Shown: positions 4,391 to 37,535 of the stretch, one piece after another
Layout: every line of letters starts with the position of its first letter
Position numbering within the stretch: position 1 is the stretch's first letter
NCBI GenBank assembly: GCA_027623325.1
Contig: JAQBXY010000023.1
Location: forward strand, 1 to 54,094
Length of the DNA: 54,094 bases
Direction: 5' to 3'
Source of the DNA: Gemmatimonadota bacterium
Lineage (GTDB): Bacteria; Gemmatimonadota; Gemmatimonadetes; Longimicrobiales; Gaopeijiaceae
Notes under the pieces: generated by a model
The model's database searches: none
Told to the model about the DNA's origin: nothing
The model's input: only the letters and a program-made list of their open reading frames with translations
Position numbers and translations under genes: made by a program

Positions 4391-6745
4391 ATGCTGACCC
4401 AGGAGCAACGCCGCGAGATTCTGGCCGTAGTCCTGTTGGCCGCCGCCCTCTTTCTTCTGCTCTCGCTCCTGCCGGTATCGACATTCGGGTCGTCGGGGGC
4501 CGGGTGGTTTCCATCGGGCAACATGATCGGCCCGGTCGGTGGGACGATACGGGGCCTGCTGGTGGCGTTCGTGGGGAGCTCCGCCGTGCTCGTTCCCGTT
4601 CTGTTCGGCATCGCCGGAGTACGGGCTGGACAGTGGCTCTCGGCCGAGCGCGCGGTGCGGTACGCGCTTCTCGCGACTGGGCTGATGATCCTCGTTCCAA
4701 TGTGGATACGAGTCTCGGTGGGCGAATCGGTCGCAGCGGGGTGGCTAGGAAATCTGTTGGGCGCTCCCCTGCTTGGCCTCGTCGGCGGATTCGGAGCCCT
4801 GTTGGCCACGGGGGTGGCGTTCGTCGCCCTGTGTGTGGCGACGCTCGGATGGAACCCACTTCGCTCGGTGGGCCAAGGCGTGATGGTGGGCGGTGACATG
4901 GCGGGGCGCACGGCTAAGGTCCTCGCCGACAAGCGCAGGGAACTGGCCGAGTCGCGGGCGAGGGCCCTGGCCGAGCGTGAGGGAAAGAGGGTCGTCGACG
5001 AGGTGTCCGCCGTGGAGGGGCTCGAGCCGGAATGGCTTGCCCCCCCAGAAGAGGACTCGAGGGAGGCCGACGAGTCAGATGAGGCGGCGGAAGATGCGTC
5101 TCTCGAGGCGGCGGTCGATGAGCTCGGATTCGGCGAAGAAGACTTGGCCGAGTCTGATCCTGAGGACGATTTCTTCGACCCGAACGCGGGGGCGCCGATC
5201 GGGCACGAGGTACCCCCGGTTGACCTCCTCAGCGCGCCCGAGATCCAGGACCGCGCGAGCATGGAGCGTGAGCTCGACGAACTCGGTGAGATCCTGATTG
5301 AGAAGCTTCGGACATTCAACGTGGAGAGCACACTCGCAGGGCGAACCACGGGACCCGTCGTGACCCAGTTCGAGGTGGTTCCGGCTCCTGGCGTCAAGGT
5401 GAACCGCATCGCCAATCTGGATGCCGACCTGGCCCTGGCGATGAAGGCGAAGACGATCCGGATTGTTGCCCCGATTCCTGGCCGCGGCGCGGTTGGAGTC
5501 GAGATTCCCAATCCTCAGCCCGAAATCGTCAACCTCCGCGAAATTCTCGAACAGCCCGCCTTCCGGAACGCGAAAGGCGAGATGCCACTGGCGTTGGGCA
5601 AGGACCTCCATGGGAAGGCCTACGTCTCGACGCTCGAGAAGATGCCGCACGTCCTGATCGCCGGGGCGACGGGGGCCGGAAAGTCCGTGTGCCTGAACAC
5701 GATCGTGACGAGCCTCGTCTACCGGCACACGCCGGAAACGCTGCGCCTCCTCATGATCGACCCCAAGATGGTGGAGCTGTCGGTCTATTCTCGACTGCCC
5801 CATCTCCGCCACAACGTCGTCACCGACCCCCGTGACGCTGCCGGTGTACTGAAATGGGCGGTTTTGGAGATGGAGCGCCGGTACACACTGCTCAAGGTGA
5901 ACCACGTCCGCTCCCTCCAGGAATTCAATCGGAAGGTCCGGGACGGCCAGGTGTTGAGGCGCACAGAGCCGAAGGGACCCGAGGGGGATGAGAATCGGTG
6001 GATCTATTCGGACGGGGTGATGCCCTACATCGTGGTGGTGATCGACGAACTCGCGGATCTCATGATGACCGTGCAGTCCGAAGTCGAGAAGCCGCTGACC
6101 CAACTCGCTCAGAAGGCGCGCGCCATCGGTATCCATCTGATCGTCGCGACACAGCGCCCATCGGTGAACGTGATCACGGGCCTCATCAAGGCGAACTTCC
6201 CGACGCGAATCGCCTTCCGCGTGGCGTCGAAGACGGACTCACGAACGATTCTGGATCAAAACGGCGCCGACGCGCTTCTCGGGAACGGGGATATGCTCTT
6301 CCTCCCTCCGGGAGGCAGCGACCCGGTTCGGATTCAGGGGGCGTATCTGTCGACGGAAGAGACCGAACGACTCATGGGGTGGTACGTGGAGCTGCTCGAG
6401 CGACGATCCCAAGAAGCCGACGCGATTGTGGTGACGGATCCTTCGTCGGAGACGGATATCCTGGAGGAAGTCAGGGGTCAGGAGCTCACCGATGCTGCGG
6501 CTGCGGTCGACGAGATCGCGGGCGACTGGGACGATCTGTTCCGGGCGGCGGCCGAGATCTGCATCCAGAACGGAGGGGGCTCGACGTCCCTGTTGCAGCG
6601 TCGTCTGAGCATCGGCTACGGGCGTGCTGCCCGGATCGTCGACCAGCTACACGATGCCGGGGTGCTCGGACCGTCGGACGGGGCCAAGGGCCGAGAGGTG
6701 CTGGTTTCGATGGGCGAACTCGATTCAATCTGTGGCGTGGCATGA
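4391..6745 (+). CDS. ftsK: DNA translocase FtsK/SpoIIIE
   Basis: Septum-anchored ATPase that pumps chromosome ends into daughter cells and activates dimer resolution. The 784-residue protein has about four N-terminal membrane segments within the first 150 residues, then a charged Glu/Asp-rich linker (about 175-280), shorter than the long E. coli linker. The RecA-like motor follows, with Walker A GATGAGKS at residues 425-432, Walker B VVVIDELADL, and the ATQRPSVNVITGLIKANFP block. The C-terminal winged-helix gamma domain (SLLQRRLSIGYGRAARIVDQL) reads KOPS-type polar sequences. The stop overlaps the lolA start (ATGA), suggesting coupled translation. Confidence 0.97.
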   Translation: MLTQEQRREILAVVLLAAALFLLLSLLPVSTFGSSGAGWFPSGNMIGPVGGTIRGLLVAFVGSSAVLVPVLFGIAGVRAGQWLSAERAVRYALLATGLMILVPMWIRVSVGESVAAGWLGNLLGAPLLGLVGGFGALLATGVAFVALCVATLGWNPLRSVGQGVMVGGDMAGRTAKVLADKRRELAESRARALAEREGKRVVDEVSAVEGLEPEWLAPPEEDSREADESDEAAEDASLEAAVDELGFGEEDLAESDPEDDFFDPNAGAPIGHEVPPVDLLSAPEIQDRASMERELDELGEILIEKLRTFNVESTLAGRTTGPVVTQFEVVPAPGVKVNRIANLDADLALAMKAKTIRIVAPIPGRGAVGVEIPNPQPEIVNLREILEQPAFRNAKGEMPLALGKDLHGKAYVSTLEKMPHVLIAGATGAGKSVCLNTIVTSLVYRHTPETLRLLMIDPKMVELSVYSRLPHLRHNVVTDPRDAAGVLKWAVLEMERRYTLLKVNHVRSLQEFNRKVRDGQVLRRTEPKGPEGDENRWIYSDGVMPYIVVVIDELADLMMTVQSEVEKPLTQLAQKARAIGIHLIVATQRPSVNVITGLIKANFPTRIAFRVASKTDSRTILDQNGADALLGNGDMLFLPPGGSDPVRIQGAYLSTEETERLMGWYVELLERRSQEADAIVVTDPSSETDILEEVRGQELTDAAAAVDEIAGDWDDLFRAAAEICIQNGGGSTSLLQRRLSIGYGRAARIVDQLHDAGVLGPSDGAKGREVLVSMGELDSICGVA

Positions 6746-7395
6746 CCCGCTCACTCGTGGTGACACTCGCTCTGTCTCTGGCCGCGTTGCCGAAGGCCGC
6801 CGAAGGCCAGAACCGTGGGTTGGAAATCCTCGAGCGCGCCTCAGACCGATACGAAGCCGTGCAGACCCTGTGCGCCGACTTCACCCAACACCTATTGGTC
6901 CCGCTCCTCGGCAACGAGCGCACAGGAACGGGGCGACTTTGTCAGGGACGACCCAATCTCTTTGCGATGCGGTTCACCGATCCCGCCGGTGACCTGATCG
7001 TCGTGGACGGTGACTTCGCGTGGATCTATTTCCCGAGCAACGATGCGCGGACCGTGCTCAAGACCTCTGCCGATCGGAGCGCGGGTGGTCGGGATTTTCA
7101 TCGGGAGTTCCTTAGCGATCCCGCCACCAAATACGAGGTCGCATACGTCCGGTCGGAGGTCGTGGTGGGACGTGAGACCCATCGCATCAACATGATCCCG
7201 AAGGGACCGGCCTCGTACCGGACGGCCACGGTTTGGCTCGACGTTGCGGAGCCGGTACTCCGGCAACTTCGTTTGGAAGAGGAGAACGGGAACGTACGAA
7301 CGATCACGCTTACCAACGTCGACTTCGCGAGCGATCCGGGAGGGGACTGGTTCTCCTTCACCCCACCGCTCGGGGCACTCGTGATGGTCCGATGA
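6742..7395 (+). CDS. lolA: Outer-membrane lipoprotein carrier protein LolA
   Basis: Periplasmic chaperone that ferries lipoproteins from the LolCDE exporter to the outer membrane. The start is the ATG overlapping the ftsK stop: it gives a clean signal peptide (MTRSLVVTLALSLAALPKAAEG) and a 217-residue protein. Family features include the ADFTQ motif near residue 45, the GTGRLCQGRPNLFAMRF strand and the WIYFPSNDARTVLK region. Two cysteines, Cys44 and Cys67, flank the first strand pair and could form a disulfide in the periplasm; E. coli LolA is not known for such a pair. Placement next to ftsK is a recurrent arrangement in several phyla. Confidence 0.9.
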   Translation: MTRSLVVTLALSLAALPKAAEGQNRGLEILERASDRYEAVQTLCADFTQHLLVPLLGNERTGTGRLCQGRPNLFAMRFTDPAGDLIVVDGDFAWIYFPSNDARTVLKTSADRSAGGRDFHREFLSDPATKYEVAYVRSEVVVGRETHRINMIPKGPASYRTATVWLDVAEPVLRQLRLEEENGNVRTITLTNVDFASDPGGDWFSFTPPLGALVMVR

Positions 7396-7411: not shown

Positions 7412-8872
7412 ATGACGCGCACGCGGGATCTTCCGGTCTTCCCGGTCTCGCCGGATCCGGTACGGCCCGGGGTGTGTCCCGACGTCGCTCTCGTCCATCA
7501 CGAGATCGGGGCAACCGGTGATGCCAATGGGCCCCGGATCGCATTGGTGACACTCGGGTGTGACAAGAACACGGTCGACTCGGAGCGCATGATGGCGGCG
7601 CTCGTGGGGCACGGGGCGCGAGTGTCGTCGGACGTCGACGGCGCGGAGGTCGTCATCGTGAACACGTGCGGCTTCATTCAAGCGGCAAAGGAGCAATCCA
7701 TCGAGACCATCCTCGAGGCGTGCGGCATGAAGGCCGATGGCACGCTCCGAGCGGTCGTGGCGGTTGGGTGTCTGGTCCAGCGACACGGTGACGAACTGAA
7801 GAAGGAGATTCCCGAGGTCGATCTCTTCCTTGGGCTCTCGGAACTCCCTACGCTCGTGCCCGAGCTCAGGAAGCGTGGTTTGCTGCCACAGCCGGGCGAT
7901 TTCGTCCCGATCATGGAGCGACCGCTCCGGATCCTCTCGTCGGCAACGTCTCACACTTCGTATCTGAAGATTTCCGAGGGGTGCGATCACACATGTGCTT
8001 TTTGTGCGATCCCGCTGATGCGGGGACTCCACCGCTCACAGCCTGTCGAGGAGCTCGTGCGAGAAGCGGCGGGACTCGGCGCTGCTGGAGTGCGCGAGAT
8101 CAACATCGTCTCTCAGGACACTACGTGGTATGGCCGTGACCTGCGCCGGCGCGACCGGGATGCGCCCTTGCTGGCGGACATGCTGCGGGCGCTACTCGCG
8201 GGGACCGATGTGCCCTGGTATCGTTTGTTCTATATGTACCCCTCGGGTATCACACGCGAGATCGTGGAGCTGATCGCGAAGGAAGATCGTGTTCTCCCCT
8301 ATCTCGACATGCCTATTCAGCACGGGAGCGATCGGATTCTGGAACGGATGCGTCGACCGGAACGACAGGCCACGATCCGGGAACGGGTTGGCTGGTTGCG
8401 CGATGCCGTGCCCGACCTGACGCTGCGTACTACGGTCATCGTCGGCTTCCCGGGTGAAACCGATGAGGACTTCCAGGAGATGCTCGAGTTGCTCGACGAG
8501 ATTCAGTTCGAGAGAGTCGGCGCGTTTGGATATTCCGTCGAAGAAGGAACGAGGGCCGAAGGCTTCGATGGCCGAGTTCCCGAGGACGTGATCGGTGAGC
8601 GTGTGGAGCGCCTCATGGACTTTCAACGAGGGATCTCGTTCGATCGGAACCTCGACTTGGTAGGGACGACAACCACGGTTCTGATCGACCAGCTCACCGA
8701 CGACGACCCGGAGTTCGGCGCTGTCGGACGTACGATGGGTCAGGCGCTCGATATCGACGGCGTGACACATTTGATCACGCCGGCCGGAGTGCGCCCCGGC
8801 GACATGGGGCAGGCGAGAGTCGTTTCTGCGCTCGACTATGATTTGATCGCGGAGTGGATCGGCAATGGGTGA
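7412..8872 (+). CDS. rimO: Ribosomal protein S12 methylthiotransferase RimO
   Basis: Radical-SAM enzyme that methylthiolates an aspartate of ribosomal protein S12. The N-terminal domain holds the three cluster-binding cysteines in LGCDKNTVDSE, NTCGF and VGCLVQR. The radical-SAM core has GCDHTCAFCAIP (CX3CX2C) and PIQHGSDRIL, and a TRAM domain closes the protein. LGCDKN-VDSE and the MRG motif separate it from MiaB. The 486-residue length includes about 40 poorly conserved residues before RIALVTLGCDKN, so the real start may be an internal GTG at 7472 rather than the ATG at 7412. The downstream envelope gene begins just after its end. Confidence 0.94.
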   Translation: MTRTRDLPVFPVSPDPVRPGVCPDVALVHHEIGATGDANGPRIALVTLGCDKNTVDSERMMAALVGHGARVSSDVDGAEVVIVNTCGFIQAAKEQSIETILEACGMKADGTLRAVVAVGCLVQRHGDELKKEIPEVDLFLGLSELPTLVPELRKRGLLPQPGDFVPIMERPLRILSSATSHTSYLKISEGCDHTCAFCAIPLMRGLHRSQPVEELVREAAGLGAAGVREINIVSQDTTWYGRDLRRRDRDAPLLADMLRALLAGTDVPWYRLFYMYPSGITREIVELIAKEDRVLPYLDMPIQHGSDRILERMRRPERQATIRERVGWLRDAVPDLTLRTTVIVGFPGETDEDFQEMLELLDEIQFERVGAFGYSVEEGTRAEGFDGRVPEDVIGERVERLMDFQRGISFDRNLDLVGTTTTVLIDQLTDDDPEFGAVGRTMGQALDIDGVTHLITPAGVRPGDMGQARVVSALDYDLIAEWIGNG

Positions 8873-8900: not shown

Positions 8901-9581
8901 GTGATATCGCGTGTGACTTGGCTTGGTGCGGTGCTGTGCGCGCTCATGGTCGCACCGTCCAATGGTACCGCGCAGGACATCGCCGACCTCGACTATGAGC
9001 ACCTGTCTTTTCGAGGCTTCGGCTTCGACTTCGGGTACATGTGGCCGAATCGGGTCGAGCCGACCGAGACGTACGCCGTGCGGTTCGACCTGGGCTACGC
9101 TGGACCGGGACTCCGAATCGTCCCTTCCGTCACTGTGTGGCGATCACCCATGGAGGCGCTGGAAATTCAGGAATTCGCCGATCGGGTCGCGGCGCTCGTG
9201 GCAGAACAGACCGGCGGGCCCCCTCCGGCTCTGGATCTTGGGGTGATCGAATACACGGATATCGCCCTCGGAATCGATGGGCACGTAGTGTGGGAGCTTC
9301 CGCTCGACTTGTTGACCTTCGGTGGGTTGGGGCTGACCGCACACTTTCTCAACGGGGACGGCGAGGCGATCGCAGGGACCTTCGTCGAGGATCTTCTCGA
9401 TTCGGTAGAGCCGGGATTCAATCTCCACTTTGGGATGGAATACCCGGTGACGAATTCCATGCGGTTGTATACCGTCGGGCGCTACGAGGTCATGCCCGAC
9501 CTCCAGTATTTTCACGCACGTGTAGGGTGGCAGATCATGATTGGCCCGAATGCGCCAGGCGAGGGTCGCGGCAATGACTGA
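8901..9581 (+). CDS. Hypothetical secreted, beta-barrel-like envelope protein
   Basis: Not recognised as a named family. With the GTG start at 8901 the protein is 226 residues and opens with a signal peptide (ISRVTWLGAVLCALMVAPSNGTAQD). The mature part has alternating amphipathic strands (FGFDFGYMWPNR, YAVRFDLGYAGPGLRIVPSVTVW, HVVWELPLDLLTFGGLGLTA, MRLYTVGRYEVMPDLQYFHARVGWQI) typical of small outer-membrane barrels such as OmpA/OmpW-like proteins. It ends without the usual terminal Phe: the barrel-like part stops at GWQIMIG and a short polar tail follows. An ATG at 8865 would add 12 residues before the signal peptide. It sits between rimO and an oxidoreductase gene and overlaps the latter by 8 bases. 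Confidence 0.75.
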   Translation: MISRVTWLGAVLCALMVAPSNGTAQDIADLDYEHLSFRGFGFDFGYMWPNRVEPTETYAVRFDLGYAGPGLRIVPSVTVWRSPMEALEIQEFADRVAALVAEQTGGPPPALDLGVIEYTDIALGIDGHVVWELPLDLLTFGGLGLTAHFLNGDGEAIAGTFVEDLLDSVEPGFNLHFGMEYPVTNSMRLYTVGRYEVMPDLQYFHARVGWQIMIGPNAPGEGRGND

Positions 9582-10590
9582 GCCTTCGCCCCCGGTCCGA
9601 CTAGGAATCGTCGGCACGGGCGCGATCAGCCAGATCGTGCACCTGCCGATTCTCGCGCAACGACCCGATGTCAACGTCGTCGCCCTTGCCGACACGGACG
9701 TGCACAAGGCGGAGGCGCTCTCTCGACGATTCGGTGTGCCCCTCGTTCTCGACACCGCCGACCTCATCGCTTTCGACGAAATCGATGCGATCGTCGTGTG
9801 CACCCCGAACGATAGCCATGAACAGCTCACGATCGCGGCGCTCGAGGCTGGCAAGCACGTTCTGGTGGAGCGTCCGATCGCCGCGTCGTCGGCGGGCGCC
9901 GCTCGTGTCATTGAGGCGGCCGAGCGTAGTGGACGTGTAGTCAGCGTCGGCCTGCCGCACCGCTTTCGACCCGAGGTGGTCGCGTTGCGAAGCTTCGTCG
10001 CGGGTGGAGAACTCGGGGCGCTCTATTCGGTCCGTGGGAGTTGGCTGATACGATCGGTCCCCGCCATGCGGTCGTCGTGGCGCAACAAGGCCTCCCGAGC
10101 CGGCGGTGGTGCGCTGATCGATCTGGGGATCTCCGCGCTCGACCTTTGTCTATGGGTGGTTGGTTTTCCCCGGATCAGGCGGGTGTCATGCGTCATCGGC
10201 CCGGGTGAGTCAGGAATCGAAGACGCGGCAACCGTCATGCTGGAAACTCAGGAAGGGATCGCGTTGACCCTCGAGGTCAGCAATCGGTTCTTCGCGGGTG
10301 AGGATCGCTACTACATCCGGGTGATGGGCCGGGAAGGATCGGGGTCGCTGCCGCCTCTTGAGGTGTTCAAGCAGCTAGGCGGGCGGCCGATGGACGTTAC
10401 TCCGCGGCAACCCAAGCCTCGGGGCGGAGAGAACCCCTACACGAATGCGTACCGACGCTTGCTCGACGACTTCGTTCGCTGCGTGTCGGGTAAGAGTGAA
10501 GCCAAGATCCCTCACGAGCAGATCCACCTGATGGAGGTGATCGAGGCGGCGTATCGGGCTGCGAGCGAGGGGCGGGAGATCGAGTTATAG
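9574..10590 (+). CDS. Gfo/Idh/MocA-family NAD(P)-dependent oxidoreductase
   Basis: Probable sugar or cyclitol dehydrogenase. The N-terminal Rossmann fold shows VRLGIVGTGAISQ and LADTD. The family's cofactor/catalytic motif E-K-P appears as VERPIA. A C-terminal alpha/beta substrate domain follows (RVIEAAERSGRVVSVGLPHRFRPEV ...). ATG 9574 was chosen because it is six codons before the Rossmann strand and overlaps the upstream stop by 8 bases; in-frame TTG 9541 and ATG 9550 would add non-conserved residues. That gives 338 residues, close to the family norm. The substrate cannot be assigned. The window also holds an inositol-phosphate synthase 4.5 kb away, but the family is too broad to link them. 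Confidence 0.88.
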   Translation: MTEPSPPVRLGIVGTGAISQIVHLPILAQRPDVNVVALADTDVHKAEALSRRFGVPLVLDTADLIAFDEIDAIVVCTPNDSHEQLTIAALEAGKHVLVERPIAASSAGAARVIEAAERSGRVVSVGLPHRFRPEVVALRSFVAGGELGALYSVRGSWLIRSVPAMRSSWRNKASRAGGGALIDLGISALDLCLWVVGFPRIRRVSCVIGPGESGIEDAATVMLETQEGIALTLEVSNRFFAGEDRYYIRVMGREGSGSLPPLEVFKQLGGRPMDVTPRQPKPRGGENPYTNAYRRLLDDFVRCVSGKSEAKIPHEQIHLMEVIEAAYRAASEGREIEL

Positions 10591-10721
10591 CCGCGTCGTG
10601 GTGCCCGCGCTCCGGCGAGCGCGTCATTCCCGCGCTGTCGGGCGTCCTCCTCGCGCTCTCGTTTCCTCCGTTTCATCCGGTTCTCCTTCCGTTCGTCGGG
10701 CTCGTTCCGTTCGCGCTCTGG

Positions 10722-12170
10722 GTGCATGGGCTGCCTGCCGATGCGAGTGGGCGCCAGGCCGCGAGGCGAGGCGCCGTCGTGTTCGGAACGACGTACTTTG
10801 GCCTCCTCTTTTACTGGATCCTCGTCGCGCTGATCTGGTTCACGAAATTGGCCGTTCTCGCGTTTGCGGCGACCCTCGCGATTCTCGTGCTCATGACCAC
10901 GGTATTCGCGTGGCTGTTGCACCACGGCTTGCACACGATGCGTGCTCCCCTCTGGGTCGTTTTGCCGGTTGCGTGGACGGCGCTCGAATGGTCGCGAGCG
11001 CACCTGCCGAGTACGCTCGCCTTCCCCTGGCTGGGGCTCGGAACGTCTCTCACGGGCGTCCCAGAGATGGTGGGGATCGCCGAGCTCGTGGGGAGTCGGG
11101 GGGTCACCTTTTGGATCGTGCTGGTGAATGCGCTGATTGCGCAGACGATCCTGAGCCTCCGCGACGGCGCTCCCTGGCGTCACCGCCTCGCCGTGATCGC
11201 GCTGGTCGTTGCCTCCCCGATCGGGTGGGGCGTGTGGAGGGCGCAGACCTTGCCTCTCCGGGCCGTCGGTCGCGTCGCCGTCGTTCAACCCAACATTCCC
11301 GAGCACGTGAAACTAGACGGTGCAGCGGGGCTGGACAGCACGTTCGCCGCCCTAGATCGACTCATTCCTTCGATCGCCCCGGGAGCGGTCGACGTCGTCG
11401 TTCTCCCCGAGGTGACGCTCAATCTCTTCCTCCGGTCGAGCCGCTTCGACAGCGAGCGGCTTCGCATGCAAGCGTACAGTCGGGAGGTCGGTGCCCCTCT
11501 CGTCTTCGGTAGTCTGGGCTTTTCCGTTCCCGCACGGGGAGGGGTCACGCCGTATAACTCGGCGTTCGTGATGGAGCCCCAAGGGCTCACGGATTTTCAG
11601 TACGACAAGCACTTTCTCGTCCCTATCGTCGAACGGGTGCCTTTCTTGCCGCGCAGCCTCACCGAGGAAATGCCGTACTTCGGAGCCTACGGAGTCGGAC
11701 GAGAGTGGCCGCTGATCGAGGTCGATGAAACGCGCTACGGCGTATTGATCTGCTACGAATCCACGTATCCGGAGGGTGCGCGTGCCCTTCGATGGGAGGG
11801 TGCCGATGTGCTCCTCAACATCACGAACGATGCGTGGTATGGGCGCGAACCCCTGTACGCACGGACCACCGCCCTCTGGCAGCACCCCGCTCATATGGTG
11901 ATGAGGGCCATAGAGAACCGGGTGGGGGTGGCGCGGGCGGCGAACACGGGGATCTCCATGTACGTGGACCCGATCGGGCGCGTCTACAATCCGACGCCGC
12001 TCTTCGAGGAGGCAACGGTCATCGATGAGGTCTACACCACCGATGTGCTGACCTTTTATACGCGCTATGGAGACCTGGTGGGCAACGGCGCAGCGTTCGC
12101 GGCTCTCCTCATGGCCCTTTCGCTGATCGTGGCGCGTCCATCACTGGACCCCCTCGAGAGAGTCGTTTAA
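10722..12170 (+). CDS. lnt: Apolipoprotein N-acyltransferase (start uncertain, coding begins upstream)
   Basis: Adds the third acyl chain to lipoproteins in the inner membrane, making them substrates for the Lol system (lolA is nearby). The protein has several membrane helices, then a nitrilase-fold domain with the expected catalytic triad: Glu230 in VVLPEVTLN, Lys296 in YDKHFLVP, Cys344 in LICYEST (numbered from GTG 10722). GTG 10722 is only the first legal start. The same frame upstream, from about 10623, reads IPALSGVLLALSFPPF and PFVGLVPFALW, the usual first Lnt membrane helix, but holds no ATG, GTG or TTG back to the stop at 10497. The true start is therefore a non-standard codon (ATT 10626 or CTG 10635) or an indel hides it. 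Confidence 0.92.
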
Positions 12171-12274: not shown

Positions 12275-12484
12275 ATGAAGCAGGGCATCCATCCCGACTA
12301 CATGACGGCGACGGTGGTTTGTGCCTGTGGGAATCGTTTCGAGACGATGTCCACGCGGGACGAGGTCCACGTGGAAATCTGTGCCGTATGTCATCCGTTT
12401 TATACGGGCAAGCAGCGTCTCATCGATACCGCGGGTCGCGTCGACCGCTTCAACAAGATGTACCAGAAGGCCGCAAAGGAGTGA
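12275..12484 (+). CDS. rpmE: 50S ribosomal protein L31 (zinc-binding type)
   Basis: Ribosomal protein L31 bridges the two ribosomal subunits. The 69-residue protein reads MKQGIHPDY, then [17 protein letters not shown] and the signature [11 protein letters not shown]. All four zinc-ligand cysteines are present (a CxC and a CxxC), so this is the zinc-containing C+ form rather than the zinc-independent paralogue. ATG 12275 is preceded by GGAG six bases upstream; an in-frame TTG at 12263 would add MEQD and is less likely. It precedes prfA, a frequent neighbour. The 116 bases between the two show no clear signal. Confidence 0.96.
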
Positions 12485-12600: not shown

Positions 12601-13698
12601 ATGAAGGCCCCGATCCTCGACCCGAAATTGGACGAGCGACTCGCCGACGCGGAGCGCCGCTTCGTCGGAGCCGAGGAGGCACTGGCCAGCCCCGAAGTCA
12701 TTTCGAACATCGAGAAACTCAAGAGCTTTGGGCAGGAACGGGCCCAGCTCGAACCCGTGGTCGCGGTAGGTCGTGAGTTGAGGGACGTGCTCGAAGAGTT
12801 TGCCGGCGCTTCAGAGCTTCTGCATGCCTCCGAGGATCCAGAGATGCGGGCGCTGGCCGAAGAGGAGACCGAGGCGCTCTCGGAGCGACTGGAGGTCCTC
12901 GTGTCGCGCGCGAAGGAGTTGCTGATTCCGCCGGATCCGCTCGCTGATCGTACAGCCGTGGTTGAGATCCGAGCCGGGACGGGGGGTGACGAAGCCGGCT
13001 TGTTTGCTGCCGAACTCATGCGGATGTACCGCCTGTTCGCGGAGCAGCAGGGGTGGTCCATCGAACTGATGAGTGTCTCCGAGGGCATCCCCGGCGCGAT
13101 CAAGGAGGCGATCTTCATGATCAGCGGCCGCGGCGTATACGGTCGACTGCGGTACGAGTCGGGTGTACACCGTGTGCAGAGGGTCCCCAGCACGGAGAGC
13201 GGCGGGCGTATCCACACCTCCGCAGCAACCGTAGCTGTCCTACCCGAGGCGGAGGAAGTGGACGTACAGATCGACCCCAACGACCTCCGTATCGACGTAT
13301 TCCGGTCGTCGGGTCCCGGAGGTCAATCCGTGAACACGACCGATTCGGCTGTGCGCATCACGCACATCCCCTCGGGCCTCGTGGTGTCATGCCAGGATGA
13401 GAAGTCGCAGCACAAGAACAAGGCGAAGGGGCTAAAGGTGCTGCGAAGTCGGCTCCTCGACCTCAAGATCGCCGAGTCGGAAGCGAAGAGGGCTCGAGAG
13501 CGGAAGAACCAGGTTGGAACCGGTGATCGCTCCGGAAAGATTCGCACGTACAACTTTCCGCAGAGTCGCGTCACCGACCATCGGATCGGACTTACGCTGC
13601 ACCGGCTGTCCGACGTGCTCAACGGAGACCTGGCCGAGTTGATTGCGGCGCTCCGGCTCGCGGATCAAGAGGAGCGGATGGCGGCGGAAGAAGCGTGA
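12601..13698 (+). CDS. prfA: Peptide chain release factor 1
   Basis: Recognises UAA and UAG stop codons and triggers peptide release. The 365-residue protein has the N-terminal helical domain, the codon-recognition tripeptide in RVPSTESGGRIHTS (PST, fitting the RF1 PxT pattern and not the RF2 SPF), and the catalytic loop SSGPGGQSVNTTDSAVRITH with the GGQ whose Gln is methylated by PrmC. The prmC gene follows directly with a 4-base GTGA overlap, so enzyme and substrate are co-translated. ATG 12601 is the first in frame with a plausible N-terminus. Confidence 0.97.
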   Translation: MKAPILDPKLDERLADAERRFVGAEEALASPEVISNIEKLKSFGQERAQLEPVVAVGRELRDVLEEFAGASELLHASEDPEMRALAEEETEALSERLEVLVSRAKELLIPPDPLADRTAVVEIRAGTGGDEAGLFAAELMRMYRLFAEQQGWSIELMSVSEGIPGAIKEAIFMISGRGVYGRLRYESGVHRVQRVPSTESGGRIHTSAATVAVLPEAEEVDVQIDPNDLRIDVFRSSGPGGQSVNTTDSAVRITHIPSGLVVSCQDEKSQHKNKAKGLKVLRSRLLDLKIAESEAKRARERKNQVGTGDRSGKIRTYNFPQSRVTDHRIGLTLHRLSDVLNGDLAELIAALRLADQEERMAAEEA

Positions 13699-37082: not shown

Positions 37083-37535
37083 GTGAACCCGCTATCGGAC
37101 CGGGATCTCGTTCTCGAGCTGCCTACGGATATCCAGTCGATCGAGAACGCGGTGGAATTCGTCATGAGCCGTTGTTCGACGTGCTCGGATGAAGCCAAGC
37201 GCCTGAACCTGAACTTCCGGGTTGGGCTGACCGAGGCGCTGTCCAATGCCATGCTCTACGGCAATGCGCACGACCCGTCCAAGCGAGTCCTGGTCGAAGT
37301 GACCATGGGTCACGGTCGGCTGCAGGCCACGGTCAAGGATCAGGGTGCGGGCTTCGATCCGGCCTCGGTTCCGGATCCGACCCGGCCGGAGAACCTCACG
37401 CGGGAGTGTGGCCGGGGGCTCTTCCTGATGCGCCAACTGCTCGACGACGTCTCATACAATGACCGCGGAAACGAGGTGACGCTCGTTTTGCGACTCGACT
37501 CGGGTGGCGCCCTCGAAGGTGGCGCTCAGGCTTGA
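37083..37535 (+). CDS. Anti-sigma regulatory factor, serine kinase (RsbW/SpoIIAB-like)
   Basis: GHKL-type ATPase that phosphorylates the STAS partner and binds a sigma factor. The N-box EALSNAMLYGN (Glu51, Asn55), the G1 box DQGAGFDP (Asp86) and the G2 box GRGLFLMRQLLDD are all present in 150 residues. GTG 37083 has GAGGGAG nine bases upstream; an in-frame TTG at 37065 would overlap the STAS stop (TTGA) and add six residues. A CSTC motif at 31-34, unusual in this family, might be redox- or metal-sensitive. It overlaps the phosphatase gene by 4 bases. Confidence 0.9.
   Translation: MNPLSDRDLVLELPTDIQSIENAVEFVMSRCSTCSDEAKRLNLNFRVGLTEALSNAMLYGNAHDPSKRVLVEVTMGHGRLQATVKDQGAGFDPASVPDPTRPENLTRECGRGLFLMRQLLDDVSYNDRGNEVTLVLRLDSGGALEGGAQA

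Follow-up and report, generated by a model that had tools for sequence, protein, structure and literature searches.

A conserved ATA codon overlapping the gfo stop codon as the probable start of lnt in a clade of Gemmatimonadota

Introduction

Where does translation of lnt begin when its reading frame holds no legal start codon ahead of conserved coding sequence? The question is raised by a stretch of 54,094 nucleotides from a Gemmatimonadota bacterium (GCA_027623325.1, contig JAQBXY010000023.1; hereafter the window), in which lnt follows gfo, a gene for a Gfo/Idh/MocA-family oxidoreductase. Start prediction and surveys of overlapping genes commonly assume a start codon that ends in G, and a four-base overlap is hence taken to read NTGA. 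If ATAR overlaps recur, true N-termini can escape notice under this assumption; in the present case that would be the first membrane helix of Lnt, an enzyme of lipoprotein maturation.

Results

We identified lnt (10587 to 12170, plus strand) as the gene for apolipoprotein N-acyltransferase through Pfam LNT_N (96.1 bits) and CN_hydrolase (107.2 bits), both above the family cut-offs, through TIGR00546 (253.3 bits against a cut-off of 132.9 for the protein read from 10626), and through matches to solved Lnt structures. Residues E275, K341, and C389, which would correspond to the Glu-Lys-Cys catalytic triad of E. coli Lnt, were invariant in 25 aligned Lnt sequences. The lnt frame has an upstream stop at 10497–10499 and is open from 10500. 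No ATG, GTG, or TTG occurs in it between that stop and GTG 10722, as a sequence-only reading of this DNA had claimed and our own reading of the frame confirmed; GTG 10598 and GTG 10601 are present, both out of the lnt frame. Counted from 10626, GTG 10722 is residue 33, and a start there removes the beginning of LNT_N together with the first helix. A normal Lnt is unlikely to begin at this codon, because position 1 of the LNT_N profile aligns at residue 5 (10638) in the protein read from 10626. The best matches to solved Lnt structures begin at residue 39 or 44 and are uninformative on the N-terminus; the match to one solved structure, 5n6m, begins at residue 12.

The alignment of 25 Lnt proteins comprised the window and 24 of 28 candidate loci, leaving out L032 (which is the window), L040 and L042 (near repeats), and L046 (for which the wrong frame had been picked). 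Most rows carry PRxGERLLPA ahead of the first helix. The counterpart in the window is PRSGERVIPA, read from 10605 in the lnt frame, with the conserved PRSGER at 10605–10622 (plus strand). With LNT_N reached at 10638 and PRSGER at 10605, the earlier claim that coding sequence of lnt precedes any legal start, so that a non-canonical start is needed, held. The two codons that the earlier reading had offered for this role, ATT 10626 and CTG 10635, fared less well. Both are in frame just ahead of the first membrane helix, and bacteria are known to use ATT and CTG starts, so lnt could start at one of them with a shorter N-terminus. Against this, both lie downstream of PRSGER, ATT 10626 falling within PRSGERVIPA and CTG 10635 beyond its end; as starts, neither shows conservation, and loci L018 and L192 have no codon of the ATT or CTG type before their motif. 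We therefore regard a downstream start as very unlikely.

In the window, the sole start-like codon between the upstream stop and PRSGER is an ATA at 10587–10589 (plus strand), which was absent from the candidate starts of the sequence-only reading. It overlaps the end of gfo (9574 to 10590, plus strand; Pfam GFO_IDH_MocA and C-terminal domains), whose product ends ...GREIEL before the stop codon TAG at 10588–10590 (plus strand). The junction reads gag TTA TAG, and ATAG at 10587–10590 forms a four-base stop/start overlap that places lnt in the -1 frame relative to gfo. We propose that lnt very probably starts at this AUA, by termination-reinitiation after gfo. Read from ATA 10587, the product would be a 527-residue Lnt with the short N-terminus IAASWCPRSGER....

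Elsewhere around the pair, we noted by eye lolA-like (approximately 6736–7395), rimO-like (7412–8872), and prfA-like (12601–13698) genes, and by Pfam rpmE (L31; approximately 12278–12484). Given the lolA-like neighbor, lnt lies near another lipoprotein gene.

We then compared junctions across related genomes. Whole-genome searches returned a match at E ≤ 0.001 in 111 of 148, 103 of 121, and 118 of 154 genomes, counts that include weak matches to other nitrilases. Further loci came from a scan of named genomes (69 loci), in which the window's closest relatives were Gemmatimonadota, and from additional stretches, and 107 rows were left once repeated junctions had been removed. A gfo homologue ended no more than 400 bases from the lnt match in 42 of the 107 rows, and lnt lay in the -1 frame, the geometry of a four-base overlap, in 34 of these 42. 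In the clade of the window, counted as 24 gfo-lnt loci with L188 set aside (L084 and L188 are one genome), 19 loci had the -1 geometry, reading ATA (14), GTA (3), GTG (1), and CTA (1). The 14 ATA loci represent 14 species in nine genera of this one Gemmatimonadota clade; the stop under the overlap is TAG in 11 and TAA in three, and their Gfo proteins are 41–86% identical (median 61%). The same junction, with ATA and not NTG as the downstream start codon, is thus carried by loci of 13 other species, and an error of one assembly was rejected for that reason. The sequence-only reading had also suggested a one-base insertion after GTG 10598 or 10601; conservation of the lnt frame over 10605–10622 and the -1 geometry in 19 of 24 clade loci speak against it. 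Outside the clade, the 15 gfo-lnt loci in the -1 frame read GTG (11), TTG (2), CTG (1), and ATG (1), all overlapping TGA.

The remaining clade loci varied. In two of the three GTA loci an ATG or GTG follows immediately, and in the CTA locus a GTG comes eight codons later. L089, labelled as the same genus, has a GTAG junction and no ATG, GTG, TTG, CTG, or ATN in its first 40 codons; its start would need GTA or GTC, the latter possibly in TAGTC, as in Streptomyces sigR. In the other five clade loci lnt is not in the -1 frame. Four of them (L011, L029, L050, and L193) have GTG 7 to 16 codons past the gfo stop; in the fifth, L084/L188, gfo ends in ATGA, the wrong frame for lnt, with no legal lnt start in reach, possibly through an indel or assembly error near the lnt N-terminus. 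Five loci of one genus (L007, L008, L010, L012, and L038) have an ATG start, and no gfo homologue was found upstream of them.

A CTGA overlap was seen at lnt in L104. In L210, L211, and L212, from three genera of another branch, a different upstream gene overlaps lnt as CTGA; going upstream in frame, a legal start is first reached 99 codons from the lnt match in two of these loci and not at all in the third, so a CTG start at the four-base overlap is likely there, judging from sequence, and lnt may repeatedly use weak starts.

The -1 geometry would also be expected if a -1 frameshift at the end of gfo produced a Gfo-Lnt fusion, leaving lnt without a start of its own, and the -1 frame is indeed open for 4 to 373 codons upstream of the ATA in the 14 ATA loci. 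In 13 of these 14, however, the last 40 gfo codons hold no X_XXY_YYZ heptamer, and the sole heptamer, in L192, lies 24 codons before the gfo stop. The last gfo codons CTA, TTA, CCA, and GTA would re-pair one base back with GCT, CCT, CTT, GTT, GCC, or GGT, which we judged poor. Relatives with the same geometry have GTG at the junction, and relatives lacking gfo have their own ATG. Together, these points make a frameshift extremely improbable. A start further upstream, inside gfo, was rejected because in-frame ATG, GTG, or TTG upstream of the ATA is absent in 13 of the 14 ATA loci; in the other, L017, such codons are limited to TTG at -182 and -346 codons.

Returning to initiation at the ATA, we asked which other starts each of the 14 loci offers. 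For ALTERNATIVES within the ATA loci, 10 of 14 (the window and nine of the 13 others) have no ATG, GTG, or TTG at the N-terminus before the conserved motif, with L023 (no motif found by script) and L192 (without PRxGER) judged by hand among those 10. Four loci (L005, L018, L032, which is the window, and L192) also lack CTG, ATT, and ATC before the motif. Conversely, L003, L004, L014, and L045 have a legal start before it, in L023 a CTG at codon 7 precedes PRRDE and an ATG at codon 13 directly follows it, and in L192 a GTG occupies codon 7, where the helix begins; use of ATA is therefore not required in these six. Pairing with a Shine-Dalgarno (SD) sequence, in kcal/mol, differed among such candidates. 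For the CTG at codon 3 of L017, L019, L020, and L203 it was -2.3 to -5.3 versus -13.3 to -14.8 at ATA. It was about equal to that at ATA for GTG at codon 2 of L014 (-10.1 and -10.4) and for CTG at codon 2 of L003 (-6.8 and -7.0), and stronger than at ATA for ATT at codon 10 of L004 (-8.4 versus -7.0).

These alternatives allow that the A is kept for reasons of gfo or of the mRNA, that lnt starts vary by species, and that ATA is inherited and unused. We examined this through the last gfo codon, which ends in A in 16 of 24 aligned gfo genes. Among 166 other degenerate gfo columns (each counted over at least 18 loci, L188 left out), the highest share of A was 0.30, and the mean over all 167 was 0.079. 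For the 27 leucine columns, A-ending codons made up 13 of 20 in the last, with a maximum of two of 14 among the remaining 26. CTA accounts for 3.6% and TTA for 0.7% of leucine codons in a sample from the window's genome, and the A excess at the junction goes beyond this codon bias. The first bases of the last codon vary (CTA, TTA, CCA, GTA) and the final A stays. Because every column has the same tree behind it, the excess is not explained by relatedness alone. In favor of an unused ATA are the other possible starts in L003, L004, L014, L023, L045, and L192, the lack of ATA in L089, the CTGA overlaps without a nearby legal start behind a different upstream gene in L210–L212, and the two of the 16 genes (L011 and L084) that have the A without an ATA in the lnt frame. 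Such a reading leaves unexplained both the confinement of the A to the last gfo codon and the loci with no other start candidate, and we consider it very unlikely.

We next examined whether the AUA is placed for initiation. An SD-like GGGAG lies within gfo at 10574–10578 (plus strand), 8 bases before the ATA, with a duplex energy of -7.4 kcal/mol. A 16S rRNA gene was searched for in the window's assembly (60 contigs, 3.35 Mb) and not found, and the canonical anti-SD was therefore assumed. Under this assumption, SD-like pairing upstream of ATA was present in all 14 loci (-7.0 to -14.8 kcal/mol). Control positions within gfo paired as strongly or more strongly at none of 112 positions in five loci and at 2 to 8 of 112 in seven, the window giving 8; the pairing was not exceptional in L192 (27 of 112 as strong) or L003 (21 of 112). 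The SD-like stretch also encodes conserved gfo residues.

An altered initiator tRNA was considered and rejected: in the initiator-like tRNA (L181), the anticodon is CAU and its stem contains three G:C pairs, and nothing unusual was seen among the CAU-anticodon tRNA genes in a scan that covered 30 of 44 tRNA matches. In infC (L247–L271), the codon at the conserved start position was ATC in 19, ATA in three, and ATT in three of the 25 loci read; some of these, including that of the window's genome, also have an in-frame ATG or GTG further upstream. These codons would fit the IF3 autoregulation known from infC elsewhere, and with all 25 loci reading this way, AUA, AUC, and AUU starts appear usable in the lineage.

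To see whether other genes share the arrangement, we scanned 454 kb of the 3.35-Mb genome (213 open reading frames of at least 900 bases, coding-score thresholds of our own setting). ATA over a TAG or TAA stop occurred at five junctions, lnt among them, alongside seven GTA junctions and one CTA junction. Three of the other four ATA junctions offer a legal start, located at codon 1, 2, or 11; the fourth, at 37094 on the minus strand of the window, has no legal start for 101 codons, and its start scores as non-coding. Within these 454 kb, no other gene convincingly requires ATA at a stop overlap. A class-V aminotransferase-like gene (L235, C8:59089; named by eye) lacks a legal start close to its N-terminus; the stop of the preceding frame is overlapped by GTA, and ATT and CTG stand at codons 3 and 4.

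Finally, we placed the ATA state on a gfo-lnt tree of 40 of the 42 rows with gfo beside lnt (L107 and L188 left out; eight rows fill less than half of the columns). A branch with support 100/99 sets all 14 ATA loci, with 10 others, apart from the remaining 16. Of those 16, 14 read NTG, and L107, outside the tree, has ATG. In a wider tree of 84 rows (L026, L189, and L108–L128 left out), the matching group had a support of only 83. ATA against the rest needs eight changes on the tree (shuffled mean 11.7, with 7 of 500 shuffles as low), and a three-state coding needs nine (shuffled mean 19.0). Under midpoint rooting, the first split within the clade has L019 and L020, both ATA, on its smaller side. 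As eight gains or losses are needed, ATA has been replaced often, and the simplest history would be that NTGA gave way to ATAR once and that ATAR was then replaced repeatedly.

Discussion

The mechanism we favor would run as follows. A ribosome, or its 30S subunit, terminating gfo at TAG 10588–10590 would re-initiate on the overlapping AUA, aided by the SD-like GGGAG inside gfo. The ordinary initiator tRNA would decode AUA, and the first residue of Lnt would be fMet. Since AUA is weak, Lnt would probably be made as a small fraction of Gfo, to which its translation would be coupled, and be sensitive to IF3.

More tentatively, and with slightly less than an even chance in our estimation, ATAR may be a real and selected class of stop/start overlap, its weak AUA serving as an IF3-sensitive throttle on lipoprotein N-acylation, with lnt elsewhere in the phylum placed repeatedly on other weak starts (CTGA in L104 and L210–L212, and perhaps TAGTC in L089). 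Persistence of ATAG may in part be a trap and not selection for weakness, because reaching ATG by one change loses the TAG (ATGG). From ATAA to ATGA would take one step, and the three ATAA loci have kept ATAA.

If the reading is correct, gene finders that accept only NTG would miss or truncate genes of the ATAR type. The junction would also provide natural tests of whether ribosomes tolerate poorer start codons when they re-initiate than when they initiate anew, and of whether bacteria set protein ratios by re-initiation on poor starts.

AUA starts and four-base overlaps are each known, and their conserved ATAR combination is unreported in the open-licence literature searched: among the matches listed there, none reports AUA at a stop/start overlap or lnt starts in Gemmatimonadota. 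AUA is counted among rare bacterial starts (PMC9094748). In passages of individual reports it appears as a poor one: in Bdellovibrio bd0108, a change of ATG to ATA constitutes a spontaneous mutant allele (PMC3818213), and the ATA start of streptococcal ralp3 is thought to yield little protein (PMC11238559). The Staphylococcus aureus genes infC, ccpN, and citZ have AUA start codons behind an SD, whose activity is about 10% that of AUG in poor medium and, for ccpN, up to 30% in rich medium (PMC13009471). Those genes differ from lnt in phylum and in identity, and the passages of that report we cite describe no overlap with an upstream stop.

Rare starts also include the GTC start of Streptomyces sigR, which is repressed by IF3, and the autoregulated ATT or ATC starts of infC (PMC5472188). 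The likeness to lnt would lie in a rare start that keeps expression low. These genes use GTC, ATT, and ATC, not ATA, and the IF3 effect, demonstrated there according to the passages cited, would be expected for lnt. Excess IF3 is described as inhibiting non-canonical starts and re-initiation, less so when an SD is present (PMC2268962).

As to geometry, overlapping genes are described as coupling translation (PMC6728339), and four-base overlaps such as AUGA (PMC6728339, PMC10666635) have, in the passages cited, the same arrangement as gfo-lnt, with an SD-like motif in the upstream gene. In its treatment of five-base overlaps, PMC10666635 states that G is the third base of every start codon, and the ATAR overlap lies outside that premise. 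Compared with overlaps of the AUGA type, the bases shared here are ATAG or ATAA, the start is ATA, and the stop is TAG or TAA.
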